56,367 nucleotides of DNA. It comes from an uncultured Bacteroidales bacterium (GTDB taxonomy: Bacteria; Bacteroidota; Bacteroidia; Bacteroidales; Muribaculaceae). Below are positions 6,309 through 43,359 of this stretch, piece by piece. Both the position numbers and the translations under genes were made by a program. Location: NCBI GenBank assembly GCA_902782465.1, contig CACZNH010000014.1, positions 1 through 56,367 of the forward strand, read 5' to 3'. Numbering within the stretch: the stretch's first letter is position 1; each line of letters starts with the position of its first letter. The notes under the pieces are model-generated. The model was not told the DNA's origin and searched no databases. It saw only the letters and a list, made by a program, of their open reading frames with translations.

Positions 6309-6421
6309 GTCATGGTGGGGAATAAATCCGTTTTTGGTTAATTGATGTTTTCGGGTGTTAATAAATGTTTTATTCCTGGCTTTTGTTTACCGATTCTGGC
6401 TTTTAGACAGAGATTTATGAG

Positions 6422-6429
6422 TAACTTTG
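6422..6429 (+). promoter_or_regulatory. Possible -7 box for the BadF-family kinase gene
   Basis: TAACTTTG fits TAnnTTTG 76 bases before the next start codon. The -33 region is weak, with only a TTTT run at 6401-6404 at a short spacing. Confidence 0.45.
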
Positions 6430-6505
6430 CGGCGTTAAAATGAGAGGAGCCTAATAATTTAACAGGACATTAATAGAAAAGAACAGTTGTTAACAATCGA
6501 AACCT

Positions 6506-7363
6506 ATGGTAAAAGGTCAAGATATCATATTGATTGCCGAGAGCAGCACGACGCGCACCGAGTGGTCACTGGTCGATAACGGTGAGGTGATTGCGCATGC
6601 CTATACGTCGGGACTGAACCCGTTCTTCAAGACTCGCCGCGAGATTAGCCACAGCATCCGCCTGGAATTGCCGTCGGAGTTTTTCAAGCGTCGTTGGGGA
6701 CATGTTTTCTTTTATGGCGCCGGTTGCTCGGGTCCTGAGAAGAACAAGATTATCGAGGCTTCGCTGGTGGCGCAATTCAAGACGCCGGTGACGGTCAATA
6801 GTGACCTGTTGGGTGCCGCCCGCGGTCTGCTGGTGCGTGAGCCGGGACTGGCGTGCATACTGGGAACGGGTAGCAACTCGTGCATGTATGACGGGCATGA
6901 AATTGTGAAGAACGTGCCCGCATTGGGCTTCATCCTGGGTGATGAGGGCAGTGGTGCCGCACTGGGACGCGTCTTTCTGGGCGATGCCCTCAAGGGACTG
7001 GCTCCCCATGAGTTGACCGAGGCCTTCTTTGACAAATACAAGGTGACGCGGGCCGAGGTGCTCGACGCCGTGCTCAACAACCCTGCAGCCACCCGTAACC
7101 TGCGTTCCTATTCGTTCTTCCTGAGCGAACATCTGGACAGCCCCTACGTGCACGACCTGATTGTCGGTGAGTTCCGCCGCTTCTTTGAGCGCAACGTGGC
7201 GCAGTATGACTACAAGAAGTATCCCGTCAATTTTGTCGGCGCCATCGCTACGACCTACAGCGACATCCTGCTGGAGGTGGCCAATGACTTCGGCGCAACG
7301 GTCCGCAAAATCCTCCTCAGTTCCATGCCCGGCCTCGTGGCCTATCACAGCGAGGAAAATTGA
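6506..7363 (+). CDS. BadF/BadG/BcrA-family sugar kinase-like protein (divergent MurK paralogue)
   Basis: This belongs to the actin-like ATPase fold of the N-acetylglucosamine kinase/MurK group. It is a clear paralogue of the protein at 19362-20213, sharing LLGAARGLLVREPGLACILGTG-type sequence, GTGSNSC and LGDEGSGA. The phosphate-1 loop differs: AESSTTRTEW here against ADCGSTKINW in the paralogue. The usual Asp, Gly and Lys are therefore replaced by Glu, Ser and Arg. The other ATP-site motifs are intact, so it may still bind nucleotide, but with changed catalysis, or serve as a sensor. It stands alone between the hydrogenase terminator and a repeat element. Calling it a kinase is family inference. 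Confidence 0.7.
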   Translation: MVKGQDIILIAESSTTRTEWSLVDNGEVIAHAYTSGLNPFFKTRREISHSIRLELPSEFFKRRWGHVFFYGAGCSGPEKNKIIEASLVAQFKTPVTVNSDLLGAARGLLVREPGLACILGTGSNSCMYDGHEIVKNVPALGFILGDEGSGAALGRVFLGDALKGLAPHELTEAFFDKYKVTRAEVLDAVLNNPAATRNLRSYSFFLSEHLDSPYVHDLIVGEFRRFFERNVAQYDYKKYPVNFVGAIATTYSDILLEVANDFGATVRKILLSSMPGLVAYHSEEN

Positions 7364-7422
7364 ATAGAAATCCGATGATGATATCAAAGTGGGACGCTGT
7401 GTCATAATTCAATTGCAAGGAT

Positions 7423-7607
7423 TATAACCGCCCTGCGAGCGGGAAATTAAGCAAAATAATTATGAAATTTTTATTATTATACATAGATTATTAATTTTAA
7501 TTTAATAATTTGTTTAATTTCCAGAAGCTTGGCGGCACTTCAGCAAATCGAGTAAACTCGTTTGCCTTCAGTTTGCACAAGCTTTCCCGTGCGAAAGCAC
7601 GGTTATA
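7423..7607. repeat. Hairpin-capped AT-rich inverted element, copy 1
   Basis: The element starts TATAACCG and ends CGGTTATA. Just inside each end is a small GC hairpin with the sequence CGGGAAATTAAGC on the left and its near-reverse complement (GTTTAATTTCC, TTTCCCG) on the right. The right cap is CCGTGC-GAAA-GCACGG. The middle is very AT-rich. A second copy lies at 20255-20397, also directly downstream of a BadF-family kinase gene. The rest of the 7364-7730 gap holds only the promoter below. Confidence 0.6.
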
Positions 7608-7670
7608 TTACCATGTAGCAATAGTTAAACCATAAAAATACTGAAATTTCGGGCGATATGGGTGCAATGT

Positions 7671-7701
7671 TTTGGTTTTTCGTTTGGTTTGAGTAATTTT
7701 G
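7671..7701 (+). promoter_or_regulatory. Promoter of the peptidoglycan-salvage cluster
   Basis: TTTG at 7671-7674, 19 bases, then TAATTTTG at 7694-7701: a full match to the Bacteroidetes -33/-7 pattern. It lies 30 bases before the amidase start codon. Confidence 0.8.
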
Positions 7702-7730
7702 TTGCATTACAAATTGCGAAAAACTGAAAT

Positions 7731-10700
7731 ATGAAAAGGATGTATAAGTTATTGTTGAGTGTTGCCGCCTGCCTAGCGGTGATGCCGACACAGGCCCAGG
7801 AATTGACATCGGTGCCGACTCCGACGTTTACCCAGGAGCAGCAGGACGCTGTGCAGCGCATTGTGGAGAGCAAGTTGCCCGAGCACATGGGTGTGGGCAG
7901 CCTGAAGGTGCGTTCGCTCGTGTTGGATAATGACAGCATCAAGGTGGACTTGAGTGAGAACTTCGGCGATGTGCCGTTCACCCAGGATGGGGTGGAGCGC
8001 ATGCGCGACGAAATCCGCGAGGCGCTGGGCAAGGAGTTTGACGACAGCCCTGTGTTCATCACCATCGTGGGCAACGACATCAACAAGTACTTTGCCGACT
8101 ATGAACCGGCCTACAAGCGCTCACACAAGGCCTTCATCAGCGAGCTGGATGCCAATCGTCACTACAAGCACGGCTTGGACGGCAACATCGTGGCGATGTG
8201 GCCCAGCCACGGCTGGTATTTTGAGCCCAAGCTCAACCGCTGGGAGTGGCAGCGTGCCCGCCTGATGCAGACCGTCGAGGACATGTACACCCACAGCTAT
8301 GTGCTGCCTTTCCTCATCCCGATGCTGGAGAATGCGGGAGCCTATGTGTGGAATGCCCGTGAACGCGACACGCACAACATCGGTGCCGTGGTCGATAACG
8401 ACGGCGGCGAGGCGCAGCAGGGCTACAGCGAGCACAACGGCAAGCAGAAGTGGCAGGTTGGCGATGACGCAGGCTTTGCCTTCCTGCGTCCGCAATACAA
8501 GGACTTTGAGAATCCCTTTGCCGAGGGCACTTACCGCATGGTCAAGGCCGAGAAGGACAAGAAAAAACTCTCGACCGCCACGTGGGATGTCGATATGCCC
8601 GAGGCTGGCGAGTTTGCCATATACATTTCCTACAAATCGCTGCCCAACAGCGCCAGCGACGTGACCTATACCGTCAACAGCCTGTCGGGCACACGCAGTT
8701 TCCGCGTTGACCAGAAGATGGCTGGCGGCGTGTGGGTCTATCTGGGCGATTTCCCCCTTGCCAAGGGCTTGAACAAAGCCGTTGTCGAGGTCTCGAACCT
8801 AAGCAGCGACAAGGACGCCGTCATCACCGCCGACGCCATCAAGGTGGGTGGCGGCAAGGGCAACATCGTGCGCCGTGTGGCCTTGCCCACCGAGGAGAAC
8901 CGCCGCATCGCCGCCGAACAGGAGAATGAGAAATACCTGGGTCAGGAGGGCGTGCAGTACAACTACATCGGCAGCGGTGAGCATCCTTGGTTCCATCTGG
9001 GCTCCCGCTACTTCCTGCAGTGGGCCGGTTTCCCCGACAGCGTGTATTCCACCTCGCATGGCATCAACGACTATACCGACGACTACCGCAGCCGTGGCGA
9101 GTGGGTCAACTACTTGGCTGGCGGCAGTGACGTGCTGCCCGACCGTGGCGGCCTGAAGGTTCCGGTGGACATCTCCTTCTGCCTGCACACCGATGCCGGC
9201 AGTACGCCCGACGACGAGATTGTGGGCACCCTGCTCATCTACTGCACCCGCGCAAACGGCAAGCAGTTCGGCAAGTATGCCAACGGCACGCCGCGTGAGC
9301 TGTCGCGCCGCTACTGCAACCTGCTCTCGACCGAGATTGCCAAGGACATCCGCGCCAAGTGGGAACCCAACTGGACGCGCCGCGGTATGTGGGACAAGAG
9401 TTACTATGAGGCCCGCGTGCCCGAAGTGCCCGCTGTGCTCATGGAGCTGCTCTCGCACCAGAATTTCGCCGACATGAAATACGGCCTCGACCCGATGTTC
9501 CGCTTCGACGTGAGCCGCGCCATCTACAAGGGCATGCTCAAGTTCATCGCCCAACGCGACCACCGCTCCTACGTCGTGCAGCCGCTGCCCGTCAACACCT
9601 TTGCCATCAGCAAGACCGAGAAGGGCCATTACCTGCTCACGTGGAATCCCACCCATGACGACCTGAGCGACAATGCCGACGCCACGAGCTATATCGTGTG
9701 TGAGCGCGTGGGTCTGGACGGTGCCTTCAAGGAAATCGCCACCGTCAAGAGTCCGCAGTACAGCGTGCGCATCGACGACCACAAGATTCACAGCTACCGC
9801 ATCATCGCCATGAATGACGGCGGCCGCAGCTTCCCCAGCGAGACGCTCAGCTTGGGTGAGGCGGCTGGCAGCCAGGGCGACGTGCTGGTGGTGAACGGCT
9901 TCACCCGCGTGAGTGCCCCCGACTGGTTTGACGGTCCCGAGCGTGCGGGCTTTGACGACGACAAGGATCACGGTGTGCCCTATATGCAGCAAATCAACTA
10001 CCTGGGCTCACAGTATGAGTTCCGTCGTGCCATCGAGTGGAAAGACGACGATGCACCGGGCTTCGGCAGCAGCCGCAGCGACCACGAGACGATGAACGTG
10101 GCCGGTAACAACTTCGACTATCCCTCAGTGCACGGCGAGGCGCTGATGAATGCCGGCTACTCCTTCGTTTCCTGCAGCCAGCAGGCTCTGGAGGGCGGAT
10201 ACAACACTGGTGATTATCGCCTGATGGATTTGGTCCTGGGTAAGCAGAAGGAAATCAAGACGGGCAGCGGCAGGATGCCCACCCGCTTCAAGATATATAC
10301 CGCAGGTCTGAAGGACGCCCTGCGCCGATTCACCGCTGGCGGCGGTAGCGTGCTGCTGTCGGGTGCCTACGTGGGCAGCGACCTGTGGGACAATGCTGCC
10401 GGCAACAATGACGAGGAGGGCAAGACGTTTGTCAAGAGCGTGCTGGGCTTTGAGCACCTGCACGGCAGGGCATCGCTCGACGGCACCGTCATTGCCACCG
10501 ACAGCCCCGACAACTACCTGTCATCGCCCGGCGCGTGGACCTTTGTCAGCAAGTTGAACGACAAGGTCTATGCCGTGGAGTCGCCCGACGCCATCCGTGC
10601 CAGCGACAGCCGTGGCTTCACCTGGATGCGCTACGGCGAGAACGGCCTGCCCGCCGCCATCGCCAGCGACCGTGGCAACTACCGCACCGTGGTCGTGGGC

Positions 10701-16787: not shown

Positions 16788-18104
16788 ATGAAGAAGATAT
16801 TGTTTTTGATAGTGTGTGTGATGGCGGTGGTGACGGCTGGGGCCATTGTCAAGCCGGGTGTGGAGGTGCTGCGTGACGGCGGCTTTGCACAGTTGCAGGG
16901 CAAGCGCGTGGGGCTGGTGACCAACCCCAGTGGCATCGACAACAACCTCAAGAGCACCGTTGACATCCTCAACGAGGCGCCGGGTGTGAAACTGGTTGCC
17001 CTGTTCGGCCCTGAGCACGGTGTGCGCGGCAATGCCCATGCGGGTGATGCTGTAGGCGATGCCGTGGACCCGCTGACGGGCATTAAGATGTATTCGCTCT
17101 TCGGCAAGACGCATGAGCCGACCGCCGAGATGCTGAAGGACATCGACGTGCTGGTCTATGACATTCAGGACGTGGGCTGCCGCAGCTACACGTTCTATGC
17201 CACCATGGGCGTGTGTATGGAGGCCTGTGCCAAGCATGACACCGAGTTTATGGTGCTGGACCGTCCCAATCCGCTGGGCGGCATGAAGGTTGAGGGCAAC
17301 CTGGTTGAAGACGGCTACTATTCCTTTGTGAGCAAGTACTCCATCCCCTATATCTACGGCCTCACGCCGGGCGAATTGGCTACCTTTCTTAACGAGGAGG
17401 GCATCATCGCCGAGCGCTCCAAGACGGGCCACGGATGCAAACTCACCGTCATCCCCATGGAGGGCTGGGTGCGTAGCATGCAATTCCGTGCTACAGGAAT
17501 GCCTTGGGTGGCTCCCTCGCCTCAGATTCCCACGCCCGAGAGTGCCTTCTTCTATCCCGTGTCGGGCATCCTGGGCGAGCTGTACATCTTCAACACCGGC
17601 ATCGGCTACACGCTGCCGTTCCAGACGTTTGCCGCAGCGTGGATCAACGCCGACTCGCTGGCGATGAAGATGAACGCGTTGAACCTGCCAGGCATGCAGT
17701 TCCGCCCCATCAACTACAAGCCATTCTTTGCGTTGAGCGTGGCAGTCGATAAGTCACTGCAAGAGGTGCACGGCGTTCAGACTTATATCACCAACATCAA
17801 TAAAGCCAACCTGTGCCTGACGCAGTTCTACTTCCTGCAGGTCATCCACGAGATGTACCCCCAGGTGGAACTGTTTGAGCAGAATCCCAAGCGCTATGCC
17901 ATGTTCGACAAGGTGTGCGGCAGCAAGGAAATCCGTGAGCGCTTCGTGAAGCGTTACCGTGTTGAGGACATGGCCGACTACTGGAACAAGGATGCCGAGG
18001 ACTTCCGTGTCCGTTCCTCAAAGTATTGGCTGTATCCCGAATATGAGAGTTGGATGTTAAAGGCTTCCCCGGAAAAACTGATAATCCTTAATCCTGACAA
18101 TTGA
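16788..18104 (+). CDS. namZ: Exo-beta-N-acetylmuramidase NamZ (DUF1343, GH171)
   Basis: NamZ enzymes release MurNAc from the non-reducing end of peptidoglycan glycan. Family motifs are clear: GKRVGLVTNPSGID, FGPEHGVRG (with the conserved Glu-His), VYDIQDVGCRSYTFY, DRPNPLGG and GLTPGELATFLN. An N-terminal signal peptide (VCVMAVVTAGAIV) puts it in the periplasm. The 438-residue length is normal. It lies between the permease and the NagX, MurK and MurQ genes, so its product MurNAc would enter through MurT and be phosphorylated by MurK. Confidence 0.85.
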   Translation: MKKILFLIVCVMAVVTAGAIVKPGVEVLRDGGFAQLQGKRVGLVTNPSGIDNNLKSTVDILNEAPGVKLVALFGPEHGVRGNAHAGDAVGDAVDPLTGIKMYSLFGKTHEPTAEMLKDIDVLVYDIQDVGCRSYTFYATMGVCMEACAKHDTEFMVLDRPNPLGGMKVEGNLVEDGYYSFVSKYSIPYIYGLTPGELATFLNEEGIIAERSKTGHGCKLTVIPMEGWVRSMQFRATGMPWVAPSPQIPTPESAFFYPVSGILGELYIFNTGIGYTLPFQTFAAAWINADSLAMKMNALNLPGMQFRPINYKPFFALSVAVDKSLQEVHGVQTYITNINKANLCLTQFYFLQVIHEMYPQVELFEQNPKRYAMFDKVCGSKEIRERFVKRYRVEDMADYWNKDAEDFRVRSSKYWLYPEYESWMLKASPEKLIILNPDN

Positions 18105-18110
18105 ATCATT

Positions 18111-19271
18111 ATGGGTAAAGACAATAAACGATTGCTGTCGCTCGACATCCTGCGTGGTATCACCATCGCGGGCATGCTGCTGGTAAACAATCCCGGGACG
18201 TGGAGTTACATCTACCGGCCGCTGGAGCATGCCGACTGGATCGGGTTGACGCCTACCGACCTGGTGTTCCCGTTCTTCGTCTTCTGCATGGGTGTGTCGA
18301 TGGCATTTTCCCTCAAGAAGTTCAATTACAAGATGTCGGGCCCGCTGATTTGGAAAATCGTGCGCCGCACCATCATCCTGTTCCTTATCGGTTGGGCTGT
18401 GGGTTGGTTCAGCCACCTGGTGCGCGGCCTGTGCAAGGGTGACCCCTTCAGCGAGGCGGTGAACAACCTGGACACCATACGCATCCTGGGCGTGTTCCAA
18501 CGCCTGGCGCTGGTCTATTTCTTCGGGTCGGTTTGCGCCGTGTTGTTCAAGCGCAAGTTCATCCCGTGGCTCGTGGGCATCATCCTGGTGGTTTATGCCC
18601 TCATCCTGGGCTTGGGTAACGGATATGAGTTCTCGCTCGAGAACATCATCGCCAGGATTGACAACAGCATCCTGGGCACAGACCACATGTATCACGAGAG
18701 TGCCTACGGCGAACAGATTTCCTTTGACCCTGAAGGCATCCTGAGTACGTTGCCGTGCATTGCCCACGTGCTCATCGGGTATCTGGTGGGACGCATGATT
18801 CTGAGCGTCCACAACAACACCGAACGCGTCACCACGATGCTCCTGTGGGGCACGGTGATGCTGCTGGCTGGCTGGCTGCTGCAATATGGCATCCCCTGCG
18901 GCAAGAAGATGTGGTCCTCGACCTTTGTGCTGATTACCTGCGGCATGGCGATGTGCATCCAGGCGATGCTCACCTATGTCGTCGATGTCAAGGGCAAGAA
19001 GGGCGGCTGGACACGGTTCTTTGAGACCTTCGGCGTGAATCCGCTGGCGTTGTACCTGATTGGTACGATTCTCGCCATCCTGTTCGGCGCCATCCCCATC
19101 GGCCACGATGCTGAGGGCGGCAACATCACCATCCACGGTGCTGTGTACAACTTCTTCAAGTCGTTCTGCAACGAGTACACGGCTTCGGCACTGTATGCTG
19201 TTTGCTTTGTCCTGCTCAACTGGGTCATCGGCCACGTGCTGTATAAAAAGAAAATTTACATAAAAATTTAG
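18111..19271 (+). CDS. nagX: NagX-like membrane acetyltransferase (DUF5009, HGSNAT-like)
   Basis: This multi-pass membrane protein begins RLLSLDILRGITIAGMLLVNNPG, the hallmark of the heparan-alpha-glucosaminide N-acetyltransferase/NagX group. Conserved DLVFPFFVFCMGVSMAFSL and RILGVFQRLALVY follow. Relatives transfer acetyl groups across the membrane to amino sugars. It starts 6 bases after namZ, so the two are co-transcribed. In this context it may acetylate glucosamine or muramic acid in the periplasm before uptake. No substrate can be read from the sequence. Confidence 0.75.
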   Translation: MGKDNKRLLSLDILRGITIAGMLLVNNPGTWSYIYRPLEHADWIGLTPTDLVFPFFVFCMGVSMAFSLKKFNYKMSGPLIWKIVRRTIILFLIGWAVGWFSHLVRGLCKGDPFSEAVNNLDTIRILGVFQRLALVYFFGSVCAVLFKRKFIPWLVGIILVVYALILGLGNGYEFSLENIIARIDNSILGTDHMYHESAYGEQISFDPEGILSTLPCIAHVLIGYLVGRMILSVHNNTERVTTMLLWGTVMLLAGWLLQYGIPCGKKMWSSTFVLITCGMAMCIQAMLTYVVDVKGKKGGWTRFFETFGVNPLALYLIGTILAILFGAIPIGHDAEGGNITIHGAVYNFFKSFCNEYTASALYAVCFVLLNWVIGHVLYKKKIYIKI

Positions 19272-36871: not shown

Positions 36872-37651
36872 ATGAAAGTTGTTATTTTAGCGGGTGGGTT
36901 TGGTACCCGCATTTCAGAGGAATCTCAGTTTCGCCCTAAACCAATGGTGGAAATTGGTGGAATGCCCATCCTGTGGCATATCATGAAAGTGTATTCCCAC
37001 TATGGTTTCAATGATTTCATCATTTGTGCTGGATACAGGCAACATGTCATCAAGGAGTGGTTTGCTGATTATTTCCTGCACACATCGGATGTCACCTTTG
37101 ATTTCACTAAGGGGAATGAGATTATTGTGCATCGCAAGCATGTTGAACCCTGGAAAGTTACAATTATCGACACCGGCTTGAATACCCAGACTGGTGGTCG
37201 TGTGAAACGCATCAAGGATTATGTAGGCGATGAAACGTTCATGCTTACATACGGTGATGCAGTCGGCGACATCAATGTCAAGGAACTTCTCGAATATCAT
37301 CGTTCTCATGGCAAGATTGGTACTGTCTCAGTATATAACTTCAGCCAGAACAAGGGCGTTCTTGAGCTGTCGGCAGGCGGTGATGTAGAGGCTTTCCGTG
37401 AGAAGAGTGATCAGGATGATGACATGATTAATATCGGCTTTATGGTTTTTGAGCCGGCCTTGTTTGATTACATCTCAGGTGACGAAATCATTTTTGAGAA
37501 AGAACCCATGAATGGCCTGGTGCGTGAACACCAGCTGATGGGCTATGTCCATAAGGGTTTCTGGCAGTGTATGGACACCCTGCGAGAGAAAGAAAAACTC
37601 GAACAACTGTGGGCATCTGGCAAAGCACCATGGAAGTTGTGGGATAAGTGA
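36872..37651 (+). CDS. rfbF: Glucose-1-phosphate cytidylyltransferase
   Basis: It forms CDP-glucose from CTP and glucose-1-phosphate, the entry to CDP-deoxysugars. The protein starts with the nucleotidyltransferase signature VVILAGGFGTRISEESQFRPKPMVEIGG. RfbF-specific sequence follows (GYRQHVIKEWFADYF, DTGLNTQTGGRVKRIKDYV, MLTYGDAVGDI). 259 residues is the standard length. The following dehydratase gene begins a few bases on, so the two steps are coupled. Confidence 0.93.
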   Translation: MKVVILAGGFGTRISEESQFRPKPMVEIGGMPILWHIMKVYSHYGFNDFIICAGYRQHVIKEWFADYFLHTSDVTFDFTKGNEIIVHRKHVEPWKVTIIDTGLNTQTGGRVKRIKDYVGDETFMLTYGDAVGDINVKELLEYHRSHGKIGTVSVYNFSQNKGVLELSAGGDVEAFREKSDQDDDMINIGFMVFEPALFDYISGDEIIFEKEPMNGLVREHQLMGYVHKGFWQCMDTLREKEKLEQLWASGKAPWKLWDK

Positions 37652-37677
37652 TTCATGGTTTAAATTATAATAACCCA

Positions 37678-38742
37678 ATGGAATTCAACTTGGATTTTTA
37701 CAAAGGCAAAAGGGTGCTTGTGACCGGACACACTGGTTTCAAAGGGTCGTGGTTGTGCAAGCTGTTATCGATGCTAGGCGCAGAGGTGACAGGGTATGCC
37801 CTTGCACCGAATACATCACCTTCGTTATTTGAACTTATGGGAGGTGAGAAACTCTGCAGATCGGTTATTGGAGACATTCGGGACCTAGACCATTTGATGA
37901 GAACTTTCGATGAGGCTCAACCCGAGGTCGTCCTGCACATGGCCGCACAGCCGATTGTCAGAGACAGTTACAAAGAACCACGCTATACCTATGAAACCAA
38001 TGTCATGGGTACTGTGAATGTGATGGAGTGTTTGAGACAGACGCCATCAGTTCGTTCATTCCTTAACGTCACGACCGATAAGGTCTATCTGAATAGGGAA
38101 TGGGCATGGGGCTATCGTGAAGACGAGATGCTGGATGGCTATGATCCGTACTCCAATTCCAAGTCATGTTCCGAATTGGTGACGCATAGTTATAAGAATA
38201 GTTTCTTTTCAGATGGCAGAACAGCCATTTCCACTGCGCGCGCCGGTAATGTGATTGGCGGAGGCGATTTTGCCAATGACCGTATCATACCTGATTGCGT
38301 CCGCGCTGCAGTAAGTCATGGTGAAATCATAGTTCGCAACCCCAATTCTACACGCCCCTATCAGCATGTGCTGGAACCCTTGTTTGCCTATCTGATGATT
38401 TGTGCCCGTCAGTGGGATGACAACAGTTGTTCTGGTTGGTACAATGTGGGGCCTGATGAGCAGGATTGTTTCCAAACTGGCGCATTGGTGGATTTGTTCG
38501 TGAATCATTGGGGTGAAGGTCTCTCGTGGAAGACTCCCACTGATGTGGAGGGCCCTCATGAAGCCAATTTCCTGAAATTGGATTGCTCAAAGATCAAGTC
38601 GACATTCGGTTGGTCGCCACGCTGGAATTTAGATGCCGCCATTGCTAAAATTGTTGAATGGAGCAAGTGCTGGCAGAGTGGGGGAGACATTGATTCCTGC
38701 ATGGAAAAGCAGATCAGGTGTTTTTTAGAGACGAAGCAATAG
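37678..38742 (+). CDS. rfbG: CDP-glucose 4,6-dehydratase
   Basis: An extended SDR enzyme with VLVTGHTGFKGSWL (NAD site), HMAAQPIVRDSY, NVTTDKVYLNREW, and the YSNSK catalytic Tyr/Lys, plus the RfbG-specific RAGNVIGGGDFANDRIIPD. It produces CDP-4-keto-6-deoxyglucose. The start is the ATG of MEFNLDFYKGKR by comparison with known RfbG starts; a GTG at 37648 that overlaps the rfbF stop would add ten residues. Confidence 0.92.
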   Translation: MEFNLDFYKGKRVLVTGHTGFKGSWLCKLLSMLGAEVTGYALAPNTSPSLFELMGGEKLCRSVIGDIRDLDHLMRTFDEAQPEVVLHMAAQPIVRDSYKEPRYTYETNVMGTVNVMECLRQTPSVRSFLNVTTDKVYLNREWAWGYREDEMLDGYDPYSNSKSCSELVTHSYKNSFFSDGRTAISTARAGNVIGGGDFANDRIIPDCVRAAVSHGEIIVRNPNSTRPYQHVLEPLFAYLMICARQWDDNSCSGWYNVGPDEQDCFQTGALVDLFVNHWGEGLSWKTPTDVEGPHEANFLKLDCSKIKSTFGWSPRWNLDAAIAKIVEWSKCWQSGGDIDSCMEKQIRCFLETKQ

Positions 38743-38758
38743 TTTAATTCAGATAGTA

Positions 38759-39670
38759 ATGAAAAAAGTCGTTATAACAGGAGCTGATGGTTTTGTGGGC
38801 AGCTACACTGTTCAATGTTTTCTTGACAATGGCATTGAGGTGTTGGCCTTAGACATACTGCAGGAGCCAAAGCGTTTAAAACCTCAAGCAGGCTTGACTT
38901 ATCAATGTGTAGACGTCAGCAATACTGCAGACTTGCTGAGGGTCATACCTTCAGGTGAATATGATACGTTTATCCATTTCGCATGGGCTGGTTCGGCAGG
39001 CCCGTTGAGAACTGACTATAATTTGCAGTTGCAGAATGCCCTGAATACTGTGGAGTGTCTCAAGGCTGCCAAGGCTTTGGGGTGTACTCGTTTTGTTTGC
39101 GCTGGTAGTATCATGGAACGGGAAGTAGAGGCCGCAGTACATAGCCAAGGAAGCCGTCCTGGCATGGGATATATCTATGGCATGGGAAAGCACATTGCGC
39201 ATTGCTTGTGTAAATCGGTTGCTGCCGACATCGGCATTGACCTGTTGTGGCCGATGATTACCAATGCTTATGGGGTGGGGGAACTGTCTCCTAGATTTGT
39301 CAACACCACATTGCGCAAAATCATCAACCGGGAGCCCTTGCAATTTACAGCCGGCACTCAGAATTATGATTTTGTGTATGTGACCGATGTTGCCCGAGCT
39401 TTTTATGCAGTAGCAAATAACGGTCATCCGTTTAAAGAATACATCATTGGAAGTGGAAACGCTCGCCCTCTCAAGGAATTCATCCTTGAGATGCAGCAGG
39501 CGCTGGCTCCAGACATGGTGCCTCAATTTGGTGATGTACCCTTTACGGGTACGAATCTGCCTCTGATGGCTTTTGACACGACTGATATTGAGCAGGATTG
39601 CGGATTTAGCCCTCAAGTGGGTTTTGCTGAGGGCACTCGTATGACCATGGAATGGCTTAAAACAGTATAA
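38759..39670 (+). CDS. NAD-dependent epimerase/reductase acting on the CDP-4-keto sugar
   Basis: A 303-residue extended SDR with VVITGADGFVGSYTV, FIHFAWAGSAGP, and the catalytic pair in YGMGKH (YxxxK). The family includes CDP-abequose and CDP-6-deoxyaltrose synthases (4-reductases). It lies between rfbG and a 3,5-epimerase-like gene, so it most likely performs the final 4-keto reduction. Product stereochemistry cannot be told from the sequence. Confidence 0.75.
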   Translation: MKKVVITGADGFVGSYTVQCFLDNGIEVLALDILQEPKRLKPQAGLTYQCVDVSNTADLLRVIPSGEYDTFIHFAWAGSAGPLRTDYNLQLQNALNTVECLKAAKALGCTRFVCAGSIMEREVEAAVHSQGSRPGMGYIYGMGKHIAHCLCKSVAADIGIDLLWPMITNAYGVGELSPRFVNTTLRKIINREPLQFTAGTQNYDFVYVTDVARAFYAVANNGHPFKEYIIGSGNARPLKEFILEMQQALAPDMVPQFGDVPFTGTNLPLMAFDTTDIEQDCGFSPQVGFAEGTRMTMEWLKTV

Positions 39671-39682
39671 AGCTACAAAAGA

Positions 39683-40255
39683 ATGATACAAAAGTTTGAA
39701 TTTCAGGAGTTGGACCTTAAGGGTGCCTATCTCATCAAGAGTTTCCATGCGACCGATATCCGTGGCGGTTTCATCAAGGACTATAATGTTGATACTTTCA
39801 TGGACAATGGCATCGACCACGAGCTGAAAGAAGTATTCTATACCATATCCAAGAGAGGGGTTATCCGTGCCCTGCATTTTCAGCTGGTGAAGCAGCAGGC
39901 AAAACTGGTTAGGTGTGTAAGCGGACATGTCTATGATGTGATAGCCGATTTGCGGCCAGATTCACCCACTTATGGACAGTGGCGAGGTTTCCATCTCACA
40001 GGAGATAACACATTGTCGTTGTTGGTCCCCCAATATTTTGGCCATGGCTATCTCGTTCTTGAGGACTCCATTGTCAGTTACAAGTGCGGGGAGGTGTTCT
40101 ATGGTGAGGGCGATTCAGGCATCATGTACAACGACCCAGACCTTGCTATTGAATGGCCATTTGAAGAAATTGGAGGAGAACAAAACCTTATCATCAGTGA
40201 AAAAGATCTGAATCTGATGAGTTTTAAAGAGTATTCGCAACTAGAAGTATTATGA
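39683..40255 (+). CDS. dTDP-4-dehydrorhamnose 3,5-epimerase-family (RmlC-like) cupin
   Basis: The RmlC fold is clear: RGVIRALHFQ with the catalytic His, KLVRCVSGHVYDVIADLRPDSPTYG, VPQYFGHGYLVLED, YKC with the conserved Tyr, and DPDLAIEWP. No dTDP-sugar genes are nearby, while CDP-glucose genes are. It therefore probably epimerises CDP-4-keto-6-deoxyglucose at C3 and/or C5. Its stop overlaps the next start (ATGA). Confidence 0.82.
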   Translation: MIQKFEFQELDLKGAYLIKSFHATDIRGGFIKDYNVDTFMDNGIDHELKEVFYTISKRGVIRALHFQLVKQQAKLVRCVSGHVYDVIADLRPDSPTYGQWRGFHLTGDNTLSLLVPQYFGHGYLVLEDSIVSYKCGEVFYGEGDSGIMYNDPDLAIEWPFEEIGGEQNLIISEKDLNLMSFKEYSQLEVL

Positions 40256-41016
40256 AATCAATTGAGAACTTAAAATCAAGGATTATCTCTGCTCGTCAGT
40301 ATATCTCTAATCGTTCAATTTGCAAAGAATTGAAGCGTTACAAAGGTATTCATTCAGGACAGCGTTGTTTCATTATTGGCACAGGACCCAGTTTGTCAGT
40401 TAGCGATTTGGAGAAATTGAAAGGTGAAGTGACCATATCATCTAATAGGATTTTTGAGATATTTGAACAAACTGACTGGCGCCCTGTATATTACATGAAT
40501 CAGGACACTAAACTAATTAATAAATTTAAGGATGACATTTCTAAATTGCAATGTAGACGCAAGTTCTTGCCTATCGATGTGAAGAATTTATTTGATAGCA
40601 GTGAGGATATTTCCTTCTTTGTTCTGAGGCACAAGGAGTTCTATCCCAATACTGCTGATTTCAGTATTCATATTGATCGATTTCTTGGACAGGGGTTCAC
40701 GGTGACTTATGGCGCAATTCAGTTAGCATACTATATGGGATTCGCTGAGGTATATTTATTGGGTATTGATCATAACTATGCAATTAGCTTAGATGAGAAA
40801 GGCGTGCCGGTCTATAAAGAGGGTGTAAAGGAATATTTTGCAGGTTCAAAGGCTAGTAATGTTGGTTTAAACTTGCCACGTATCGTAGAGAGCACTTTGG
40901 CTTACATCACTGCCCAGCGCTTTGCTCAGCACCACAATAATTTTAAAATCTATAATGCCACACGAGGAGGCCGATTGGAAGCATTTCCCCGCGTAAATCT
41001 TGATGATATTCTGTAG
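40252..41016 (+). CDS. DUF115/GT42-like protein, probable glycosyltransferase using a CMP-sugar
   Basis: The N-terminal CFIIGTGPSLSVSDLEKLKGEV (about residues 39-60) and GFAEVYLLGIDHNY (about 164-177) match the pattern G-x-G-P-S-L and YLxGID. This pattern is shared by Campylobacter sialyltransferases of GT42 and the Maf/DUF115 proteins that add nonulosonic acids to flagellin. It is 254 residues, with no signal peptide. Directly downstream are an aldolase with a similar C-terminal domain and a CMP transferase gene, so transfer of a CMP-activated ulosonic acid is the best guess. AT-rich. Confidence 0.6.
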   Translation: MKSIENLKSRIISARQYISNRSICKELKRYKGIHSGQRCFIIGTGPSLSVSDLEKLKGEVTISSNRIFEIFEQTDWRPVYYMNQDTKLINKFKDDISKLQCRRKFLPIDVKNLFDSSEDISFFVLRHKEFYPNTADFSIHIDRFLGQGFTVTYGAIQLAYYMGFAEVYLLGIDHNYAISLDEKGVPVYKEGVKEYFAGSKASNVGLNLPRIVESTLAYITAQRFAQHHNNFKIYNATRGGRLEAFPRVNLDDIL

Positions 41017-41066
41017 TGATTTTACTCGTTCGATTAGAGAAGTCGAGAATATAAAAGTATTTTTTT

Positions 41067-42599
41067 ATGGAGAAATTTCAAATACTCGATTGCACACTGC
41101 GAGATGGCGGATACTATACAAATTGGGATTTTGGATCCGAAATAGTTGAATCATACATCGGAGCGGTTAATCAATTGCCTATTGATTACATTGAAGTGGG
41201 TTACAGAAACCTGCCTGAAAAAGATTATATGGGTGAGTTTGGATATACACCCGCATCGACACTTGAGCATATAAGGCGGTGTACAACTCGCAAGGTTGCC
41301 GTTATGATTAATGAGAAGAGCGTGCGGATTAATGACCTTCCCAAATTACTTGGTCCAATCAAAGGTTTGGTAGATATGGTGAGAATGGCCGTAAGCCCTG
41401 ATAACTTAGACCGTGCAGTAGCTCTTGGTAGTGAGGTTCGAGCGATGGGCTTTGAAGTCGCTTTCAATTTGATGTATATGTCCAAGTGGGATCAATATGA
41501 AGGCTTGTACAATAAAATGCCTCAGTTGAATGATGTTGCGACTATACTCAACATGGTTGATTCTTTTGGGAGCATGATGCCTGAGGAAGTGATTACTAAA
41601 ATCAATAAGTTGAAGTCCATCCTAAACTGTAAATTGGGCTTTCATGGCCATAATAATCTCCAGATGAGTTTAGCTAATACGCTTGCAGCTATTGATTGTG
41701 GAATAGACTCGGTTGATGCGACTGTTTTGGGGATGGGGCGAGGTGCTGGTAACTTAAATATAGAACTCTTGCTCACAACTCTCAATAGACGAGGGCTAGA
41801 TGTGGATTTCAACGTTTTAGGAGATTTGATTTTGGCATTTAAGCCCTTGCAAGAAGAATACCGATGGGGTACATCGCTACCATATATGATTTCAGGAGCC
41901 AATTCGATACCTCAAAAAGAAGTTATGGCACTGGTTACCAATCGTGTATATAGTTTTAATAACATTGTTAGGGCCGTTGATAATAAACGCATTCATGTTG
42001 CTGACAATGCCCATTATCCATTGCTTGATGCGTCTTCGTGTGAGGAAGTGCTGATTATAGGAGGCGGTCAAAGTGTAAGTGCGCACATCAATGCAATCAA
42101 GCGTTACCTTATGAGTCATCCAGGCGTTGCTATAGTTTTTGCGACAACACGTCATGCTGCTTTGTTCAGAGATGTGTTAAACAAGAAATACTATGTGTTG
42201 GTTGGCAATGAGGCCAAGAGGATGCTGAAAACAGTGCCTCAAGACCATTATCAAGGTTGTTGTGTGCTGCCTCCTTATCCTCGGCTGATGGGAACTGATG
42301 TGCCAACTTATGCTCAATCAAGTACATTTGAATTGCCGGAAATCTCATTTATCAATCGTTATGCTGACTCATGTACCACTGTCGCTCTGCAAATAGCTAT
42401 TGAGTTAAAATCAAAGCGTGTGAATATAGTGGGCTATGATGGTTATCGCGGACAAATGCTCTCGGACAAAGAACTGACTTTGACAAGCGAAAATAGGGAA
42501 TTGTTTGAGACTTTTGCAAAGAACGTGAGTACCCTTTACTCATTAACCCCATCATTATTTAATGCATTAAAGAGCGAATCAATATATCAATTAATTTAA
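41067..42599 (+). CDS. DRE-TIM aldolase fused to a DUF115/GT42-like domain
   Basis: Residues 1 to about 315 are an HMG-CoA lyase/4-hydroxy-2-oxovalerate aldolase-type barrel. It has LDCTLRDGG (Arg12 and metal-binding Asp13), GFHGHNNLQMSLANTLAAI (metal His193 and His195) and DATVLGMGRGAGNLNIE. Such enzymes add pyruvate to, or remove it from, an aldehyde. Residues from about 325 to 510 form a second domain, EVLIIGGGQSVSAHINAI ... VALQIAIELKSKRVNIVGYDGYRG, with the same layout as the DUF115/GT42-like protein just upstream. I know of no characterised protein with this fusion. With the KdsB-like gene 7 bases downstream, it suggests synthesis and use of a 2-keto-deoxy sugar acid. Confidence 0.7.
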   Translation: MEKFQILDCTLRDGGYYTNWDFGSEIVESYIGAVNQLPIDYIEVGYRNLPEKDYMGEFGYTPASTLEHIRRCTTRKVAVMINEKSVRINDLPKLLGPIKGLVDMVRMAVSPDNLDRAVALGSEVRAMGFEVAFNLMYMSKWDQYEGLYNKMPQLNDVATILNMVDSFGSMMPEEVITKINKLKSILNCKLGFHGHNNLQMSLANTLAAIDCGIDSVDATVLGMGRGAGNLNIELLLTTLNRRGLDVDFNVLGDLILAFKPLQEEYRWGTSLPYMISGANSIPQKEVMALVTNRVYSFNNIVRAVDNKRIHVADNAHYPLLDASSCEEVLIIGGGQSVSAHINAIKRYLMSHPGVAIVFATTRHAALFRDVLNKKYYVLVGNEAKRMLKTVPQDHYQGCCVLPPYPRLMGTDVPTYAQSSTFELPEISFINRYADSCTTVALQIAIELKSKRVNIVGYDGYRGQMLSDKELTLTSENRELFETFAKNVSTLYSLTPSLFNALKSESIYQLI

Positions 42600-42606
42600 G
42601 TAAACT

Positions 42607-43359
42607 ATGAAAATTATAGCTGTTATTCCAGCCAGATACCAGTCTTCTCGTTTTGAGGGGAAACCCCTTGCCGAGATATGCGGTAAAATAATGATAGAGC
42701 GTGTTTATTTGCAGGCTAAAAAGGTAGAGCAATTTGACGAAGTATATGTTGCTACTGATGACAAACGCATCCTGGATGCATGTACAATTAGACAAATTCC
42801 TGTAATCATGACATCTACATCTCATCGTACAGGCACAGATCGATTAGGTGAGGTGGCAGAGAAGATTTCGGCGGATTTGTATGTTAATATTCAAGGTGAT
42901 GAGCCGCTTATTGAACCGGCAACAATTATTAAAGCAATTGAGCCGTTCTTGAATAATCCAGAAACAGATATACAAGTGACTAACTTGATGACCAAGATAA
43001 AAGACCCTGTTGATTTGATTAATGTCACGGTTCCTAAGGTTATTGCAGCGGCTGATGGACGTGGTATTTTCTTAACCCGTGCTGCAGCTCCGTTCCCTAA
43101 AGGAAATATTAATGTAGATTATTTCAAGCAGGTTTGCGTATATGGCTTCACACCACAAGCCTTAAAGTTTTATTGTGAATTTGGCAAGAAGTATGGGAAA
43201 GCCAAAATAGAATCTGTTGAAGACATTGAGATTCTTCGTTTCATTGAGAATGGTTATCGTGTTCAGTATATAGAGGTAGATAGTGAGACTATAGCCGTGG
43301 ATACACCTGCCGATTTGCAGCGTGTCATACAATTTATTGAGGCAAATGGATTGCAGTAA
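42607..43359 (+). CDS. kdsB: 3-deoxy-manno-octulosonate (KDO)-type cytidylyltransferase
   Basis: This CMP transferase activates a 2-keto-3-deoxy sugar acid with CTP. The N-terminal VIPARYQSSRFEGKPLAEICGK, VATDD and YVNIQGDEPLIEPATI motifs are those of KdsB. 250 residues is standard. It lies 7 bases after the aldolase-GT42-like fusion gene, not among lipid A genes. It may thus be a second, pathway-specific copy that activates another ulosonic acid. The symbol reflects the family, not a proven KDO substrate. AT-rich. Confidence 0.85.
   Translation: MKIIAVIPARYQSSRFEGKPLAEICGKIMIERVYLQAKKVEQFDEVYVATDDKRILDACTIRQIPVIMTSTSHRTGTDRLGEVAEKISADLYVNIQGDEPLIEPATIIKAIEPFLNNPETDIQVTNLMTKIKDPVDLINVTVPKVIAAADGRGIFLTRAAAPFPKGNINVDYFKQVCVYGFTPQALKFYCEFGKKYGKAKIESVEDIEILRFIENGYRVQYIEVDSETIAVDTPADLQRVIQFIEANGLQ

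Follow-up and report, generated by a model that had tools for sequence, protein, structure and literature searches.

A DRE-TIM aldolase fusion paired with KdsB- and PseF-like cytidylyltransferases: a candidate route to CMP-activated ulosonic acids in Bacteroidota and phages

To our knowledge, the cytidine monophosphate (CMP)-activated ulosonic acids of known route, namely sialic, pseudaminic and legionaminic acids and Kdo (3-deoxy-D-manno-octulosonic acid), start from phosphoenolpyruvate (PEP) and a synthase of the NeuB or KdsA type. Here we describe three adjacent genes from an uncultured Bacteroidales bacterium of the Muribaculaceae (GenBank assembly GCA_902782465.1, contig CACZNH010000014.1, positions 1 to 56,367; the whole 56,367 nucleotides are called the window), which encode an MptE/DUF115-like protein, a DRE-TIM aldolase fused to a C-terminal MptE/Maf/GT42-fold domain, and a KdsB-like cytidylyltransferase. 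We consider it likely that these genes constitute a pathway devoted to one CMP-activated 2-keto-3-deoxy (ulosonic) acid, and their recurrence elsewhere points to what is probably a new, conserved variant of CMP-ulosonic acid biosynthesis. The original prediction for this DNA, that a 2-keto-deoxy acid is made, activated and transferred without a NeuB- or KdsA-type synthase, thus finds support in the gene association and viral fusions reported below, all of it comparative. No description of the gene set was found in the open-licence literature searched, which is weak evidence of absence.

In the proposed pathway the aldolase domain would add pyruvate, in the form of its metal-bound enolate, to an aldose or an aldose phosphate and so give a 2-keto-3-deoxy acid; a HAD phosphatase, where present, would dephosphorylate the acid; the KdsB-like enzyme would activate it with cytidine triphosphate (CTP); and a transferase with the MptE/Maf/GT42 fold, dependent on CMP-sugars, would move it to a surface glycan. 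What is observed is the gene content, the association and fusion of the genes, the conserved residues and the predicted folds; from these we infer the aldol step, the kind of acid and its transfer. More broadly, we lean towards the view that this would be a third, PEP-independent route to CMP-ulosonates, in which a DRE-TIM pyruvate aldolase replaces NeuB or KdsA and feeds KdsB- or PseF-like enzymes in Bacteroidota, Balneolota and alphaproteobacterial plasmids, with a synthase-activase polypeptide in phages and an undescribed surface sugar as its product. The features concerned are as follows.

40252-41016, + strand: MptE/DUF115-like protein, 254 aa; candidate CMP-ulosonate transferase (Pfam)
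41067-42599, + strand: fusion of a DRE-TIM aldolase and an MptE/Maf/GT42-fold domain, 510 aa (open reading frame, Pfam)
41067-41990, + strand: aldolase domain of the fusion, residues 1-308, a 4-hydroxy-2-oxovalerate-aldolase-like DRE-TIM metallolyase (PF00682)
41991-42599, + strand: C-terminal MptE/Maf/GT42-fold domain of the fusion, residues 309-510
42607-43359, + strand: KdsB-like CMP-2-keto-acid cytidylyltransferase, 250 aa, signature KQCII, the genome's second CTP_transf_3 gene (PF02348)

The predicted run of three adjacent AT-rich genes is present on one strand, with guanine-plus-cytosine (GC) contents in order of 0.382, 0.409 and 0.396 against 0.503 for the whole window.

A scan of species genomes, in which loci were selected by the aldolase alone, gave 80 loci from the best 80 of 179 relatives, or 81 with the window, and in all 81 the aldolase and C-terminal domain share a single open frame. 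Every one of these fusions has a cytidylyltransferase within 3.5 kb on the same strand (in L092 only part of the gene lies within the stretch), upstream in four loci (L054-L057) and downstream elsewhere; this six-frame search used models built from the same loci, so that it is circular for detection of the family though not for its position, and the family as such is CTP_transf_3 of Pfam. TIGR00466 proved too narrow as a test of co-occurrence, missing the PseF-like partners. Calling of open reading frames, confined to the 76 fusions with enough downstream sequence for this control, placed a cytidylyltransferase no more than 2 kb downstream of 71 of them, compared with 121 of 1133 other frames in the same loci. 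Chance neighbourhood was rejected on the strength of the 81/81 association and this control. The usual gene order is fusion-(HpaI)-(SDR)-cytidylyltransferase-HAD; G112, a single contig, carries two sets of fusion, HpaI, cytidylyltransferase and HAD genes about 20 kb apart (L033 and L034). In a separate draw across the phylum the full-length fusion occurred in 8 of 296 genomes, our own included, and the 8 copies from the other seven all have a cytidylyltransferase and a HAD gene nearby (two of these genomes, G054 and G123, overlap with the 80 loci). E. coli genomes held no DNA match to the one Balneola aldolase used as query.

The survey of kdsB-like neighbours proposed with the original prediction showed partners of two kinds. 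In a tree of 120 sequences, the 77 module partners that could be placed comprised 36 KdsB-like enzymes, the window's among them, and a distant group of 41 that is weakly PseF-like (the five members checked scored 57-69 bits to PseF, whose cut-off is 205.7); single-linkage clustering had merged the two families, which the tree set apart. Mapped on the tree of the fusions, partner class switches 16 times, with at least 8 of these switches forced by well-supported branches. Such swapping of two distant lineages beside a single aldolase fusion would be difficult to account for if its product were not the substrate of both.

A second line of evidence comes from 33 loci on contigs classed as viral by IMG/VR. 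In 29 of these, falling into 14 clusters at 90% identity, the aldolase and a KdsB-like domain occupy one open frame of about 550-600 aa (the one-frame fusion of L139 is cut by the contig end). The aldolase and KdsB-like domain of L153 lie in overlapping frames, in L131 the two are separate neighbouring genes and the partner is PseF-like, L126 has the bacterial type of fusion and may be bacterial DNA, and L158 is truncated. Bacteria join the aldolase to an MptE-fold domain and phages join it to the cytidylyltransferase: the same parts, fused differently. MptE-like or GT29-like matches were present in 19 of the 33 loci, and in L133 the fusion frame runs at its end into an overlapping MptE-like gene, after which comes a GT29-like gene; a search of the viral contigs with the 254-aa protein alone gave no match, and phage records offered no place covering 80% of either query. 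Phage nature was checked by gene content for L133, where clamp-loader and processivity-factor genes lie 7-10 kb upstream of the fusion frame and an exonuclease gene is also on the contig. Between those processivity-factor and clamp-loader genes is a Pfam DruA (Druantia) match (L133:674-1861, E 2.2e-24). In one phage lineage (contig L143) the aldolase-KdsB fusion is followed, at 6354-8164, by a cupin/EcbF-like phosphatase protein, then by a kinase resembling HldE and a protein of HldE/cytidylyltransferase type, possibly a nucleotide-heptose set, which may belong to a different sugar.

The order fusion-KdsB-HAD is also retained, at about 27% identity, on alphaproteobacterial plasmids of Leisingera (three records found, two inspected). 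Plasmids of Mesorhizobium (L161:7983-9005) and Paraburkholderia (L162:7971-8996) carry aldolases of this family without a fused domain, next to HAD-IA and SDR genes, L162 with a phosphoserine aminotransferase as well; no cytidylyltransferase was found in either stretch, and these aldolases probably serve a different pathway.

Within the order of G112, which we take to be Balneolales, 4 of 128 genomes carry the fusion (E <= 1e-80): G054, G112, G123 and G203. KdsA was not found in any of the four, nor NeuB in the first three, which leaves an aldolase as the apparent acid source in three of the four. All CTP_transf_3 matches in G112 (2/2) and G123 (1/1) are at fusions; G112 is one contig and 99% complete, and G123 is about 290 contigs and 98% complete. 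The cleanest case is G123, because no HpaI gene lies beside its fusion, unlike those of G112 and G054. The other four fusion-bearing genomes of the draw all have KdsA, with NeuB in G005 and G202 and none found in G198 or our own genome. For 35 of the 80 loci the genome as a whole was also surveyed: 33 of these 35 genomes show a single KdsA above the cut-off, two copies occur in none, and the remaining two (those of L077 and L124) are already counted among the four above. Our own genome has a lone above-threshold KdsA on another contig, and neither a NeuB nor a dedicated KdsA serving the module was found in it.

The aldolase domain itself is well defined as to family. The 510-aa fusion matches HMGL-like (PF00682) at 95 bits against a cut-off of 29, and the motifs originally noted, LDCTLRDGG and GFHGHNN, are present and invariant or nearly so among relatives. 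The aldolase half matches the solved structure PDB 3dxi, a 'putative aldolase', at E 5.5e-128, and DmpG (1nvm) at E 7.5e-18. Residues R12, D13, S166, H193, H195 and N197, whose metal and pyruvate roles we assume from DmpG, are conserved in 79/79 aligned bacterial fusions and 31/31 viral rows. His21 of DmpG, which follows RDGS and which we take to be its catalytic base, is not conserved; the position is Tyr16 in the window, in all 79 aligned fusions and in all 31 viral rows. The specific 4-hydroxy-2-oxovalerate aldolase model TIGR03217 is missed as well (108.7 bits, cut-off 286).

The loss of the DmpG base bears on a different reading, in which the acid is made by an HpaI-type aldolase, by NeuB or by salvage, and the fusion performs trimming, retro-aldol recycling or a Claisen-type acyl transfer; DRE-TIM relatives do include homocitrate and isopropylmalate synthases, and in 9 loci an HpaI gene stands between the fusion and the cytidylyltransferase. 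Locus L088 further contains, apart from its fusion, an HpaI-type aldolase gene followed at once by a KdsB-like gene (16905-18412), perhaps another aldolase-based pathway to a CMP-acid. However, the stretches of 71 of the 81 loci, the window included, have no HpaI match, nor do the 29 viral aldolase-KdsB frames; NeuB was not found in the window's genome; and the NCBIfam model that scores highest with the fusion describes a DmpG-type aldolase (123.9 bits), the best synthase model reaching 62.8. We therefore regard an acid source other than the fusion as unlikely, if the most serious of the alternatives, and prefer synthesis by the aldolase domain.

The third gene was originally described as a CMP transferase with KDO-type motifs. 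Its match to CTP_transf_3 (PF02348) is clear (142.2 bits, cut-off 22.6), and the general KdsB-type residues R10, S13, R15, K19, D98 and D236 are in place; what did not hold is the identity of positions 175, 177 and 209, where H, G and Q are replaced by Q175, C177 and I209. All 19 comparison KdsBs of the phylum have H, G and Q (19 of 21 fetched, L173 and L174 being left out by a motif filter; we assume them to be housekeeping enzymes on their TIGR00466 scores), as do the five aligned chains of solved KdsBs, two of them nearly identical. Over a five-position signature (window positions 165, 175, 177, 207 and 209) the comparison enzymes read RHGLQ (18/19) or WHGLQ (1/19), while the 36 module KdsBs read KQCII in 28, KQCLI in 2, KQCIV and KQCLL in 1 each, with 4 outliers; KQCII is also read in 28/28 phage domains scored (partial L139 and L153 left out) and in 2/2 Leisingera enzymes. 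PMC3149649 gives the C-terminal domain, residues 100-210, as the Kdo-binding part of Aquifex KdsB, and by sequence order the changed positions fall in the matching region. The altered signature suggests that the natural substrate of the window enzyme is probably, though not certainly, other than Kdo.

A rival proposal would be that the KdsB-like gene makes extra CMP-Kdo for capsule or lipopolysaccharide and that the aldolase fusion is an unrelated neighbour. The window enzyme does pass NF009905, a named Kdo cytidylyltransferase subfamily (268.4 bits, cut-off 255), and the genome has kdsA, its single above-threshold copy lying on a different contig. On the other hand, it falls under the cut-off of the KdsB model TIGR00466 (144.6 bits against 155.2), the same signature change recurs in most bacterial copies, in phage domains and in Leisingera, the association with the fusion is universal among the 81 loci, viral fusions join both enzymes, and four genomes in which KdsA was not found retain the pair; we consider this proposal quite improbable. 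A housekeeping role was rejected: a further kdsB, found elsewhere in the genome on a different contig, scores better with TIGR00466 (204.6 bits), so that, given the kdsA, the window copy is an extra one and not the genome's only kdsB for lipid A, which would have counted against the original prediction. NeuB was not found in this assembly, which is 94.76% complete. We thus return to a dedicated enzyme for a different acid as the preferred reading.

For transfer of the activated acid the locus offers two candidates. The 254-aa protein matches MptE-like (PF01973) at 50.7 bits, over the cut-off of 34.6; the C-terminal domain of the fusion, at 18.3 bits, misses that cut-off, though its predicted fold agrees. 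The two resemble one another as first proposed, with a profile-profile probability of 94.5%, and the predicted structures of both match the Maf glycosyltransferase 5mu5, MjHPPK (MptE) 8sd5 and the GT42 sialyltransferases CstI/II, in keeping with a GT42-like fold. WaaZ Kdo-III transferase models (cut-offs 200 and 473 bits) were not reached, at 17.3 and 17.4 bits. Most likely the protein at 40252-41016 is the transferase of the window pathway and the C-terminal domain a CMP-ulosonate-binding or -transferring module, the latter being about as likely a second transferase as a domain for regulation or channelling. The separate proteins are favoured as the transferases because the type of candidate transferase varies among loci, whereas every fusion of the bacterial form has the C-terminal domain.

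The neighbours, whose families were assigned from one representative each, gave no single answer as to substrate: a HAD phosphatase is present in 53/81 loci, an HpaI-type aldolase in 10/81 and a PfkB kinase resembling 2-keto-3-deoxygluconate kinase in 5/81. Candidate transferases are MptE-like in 14/81, GT29-like in 12/81 and polysialyltransferase-like in 7/81, with any of the three in 33/81. It could be asked whether the cytidylyltransferase activates a non-ulosonic compound, for example a phosphonate or another acidic alcohol, since CTP_transf_3 is a broad family. Nucleotidyl activation in phosphonate pathways has been published (PMC6697681). Against this, the partners are KdsB-like or PseF-like, GT29-, polysialyltransferase- or MptE-like proteins stand in those 33 loci, and no phosphonate gene was present among the ten window proteins compared with Pfam; we hold this to be highly improbable, and an ulosonic acid remains our preferred substrate.

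The three genes stand in a polysaccharide locus. Directly upstream, at 36872-40255, is a CDP-6-deoxyhexose-type set (CDP, cytidine diphosphate) of glucose-1-phosphate cytidylyltransferase, CDP-glucose 4,6-dehydratase, SDR and RmlC-like genes, an ordinary pathway with a GC content of 0.462.

Several observations weigh against a dedicated ulosonate pathway. The evidence is comparative throughout, and among the enzymes of CTP_transf_3 are some whose substrates are not ulosonic acids. The exchange of His21 for Tyr16 means that the base, and perhaps the reaction, differs from that of DmpG. The HpaI-type aldolase could be the real acid source in the 10 loci that have it, and likewise in G112 and G054, where HpaI adjoins the fusion; G203 carries two NeuB genes, and G054 has two further CTP_transf_3 matches away from its fusion, one of them under the cut-off. 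The search for HAD and PfkB genes across the 81 loci gave no match in the window, so that the aldehyde of the window pathway is not accounted for. Any of the three CMP-type transferase families searched was present in only 33 of the 81 loci, and the similarity of the C-terminal domain is weak in Leisingera (27 and 25 bits). Finally, 8 of the 36 module KdsBs deviate from KQCII, 4 of them wholly, as does L126.

Were the proposal correct, many Bacteroidota genomes with a seemingly spare Kdo gene would make another acidic sugar, and phages would come with a form of the pathway of their own. The one-protein viral form, together with the P. vulgatus locus (L061, with fusion, PseF-like enzyme and PfkB kinase), offers small enzymes that can be expressed and hence a direct test of the idea.

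Compared with described systems, the aldolase domain is the same as that of PDB 3dxi, which we take to be Bacteroides vulgatus Bvu_2661, of unassigned function in CDD; the solved chain of 320 residues covers the aldolase part alone, and we know of no pathway for that protein. With the 4-hydroxy-2-oxovalerate aldolase DmpG/BphI it shares the HMGL-like family and the presumed metal and pyruvate residues, but it scores under the TIGR03217 cut-off, has Tyr for His21 and carries an added MptE-like or KdsB-like C-terminus. The predicted fold of the 254-aa protein and the C-terminal domain is that of Maf, MptE and GT42 proteins, although sequence identity of the solved structures to both window domains is just 13-17%. 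The CMP-Kdo pathway (KdsA-KdsC-KdsB-WaaA) resembles the proposed one in what would be KdsB-like CTP activation of a 2-keto-3-deoxy acid and in the HAD gene of most loci, and differs in the KdsA not found in four fusion genomes and in the KdsB signature, which is altered here. With the CMP-nonulosonic pathways (NeuB-NeuA, Pse, Leg) the module shares a PseF-like partner in about half of the loci and the GT29-, polysialyltransferase- or MptE/GT42-like proteins of 33 loci; NeuB was not found in our own genome, G054, G112, G123 or G198 and was found in G005, G202 and G203, and in its place there appears to be an aldolase of the pyruvate type.

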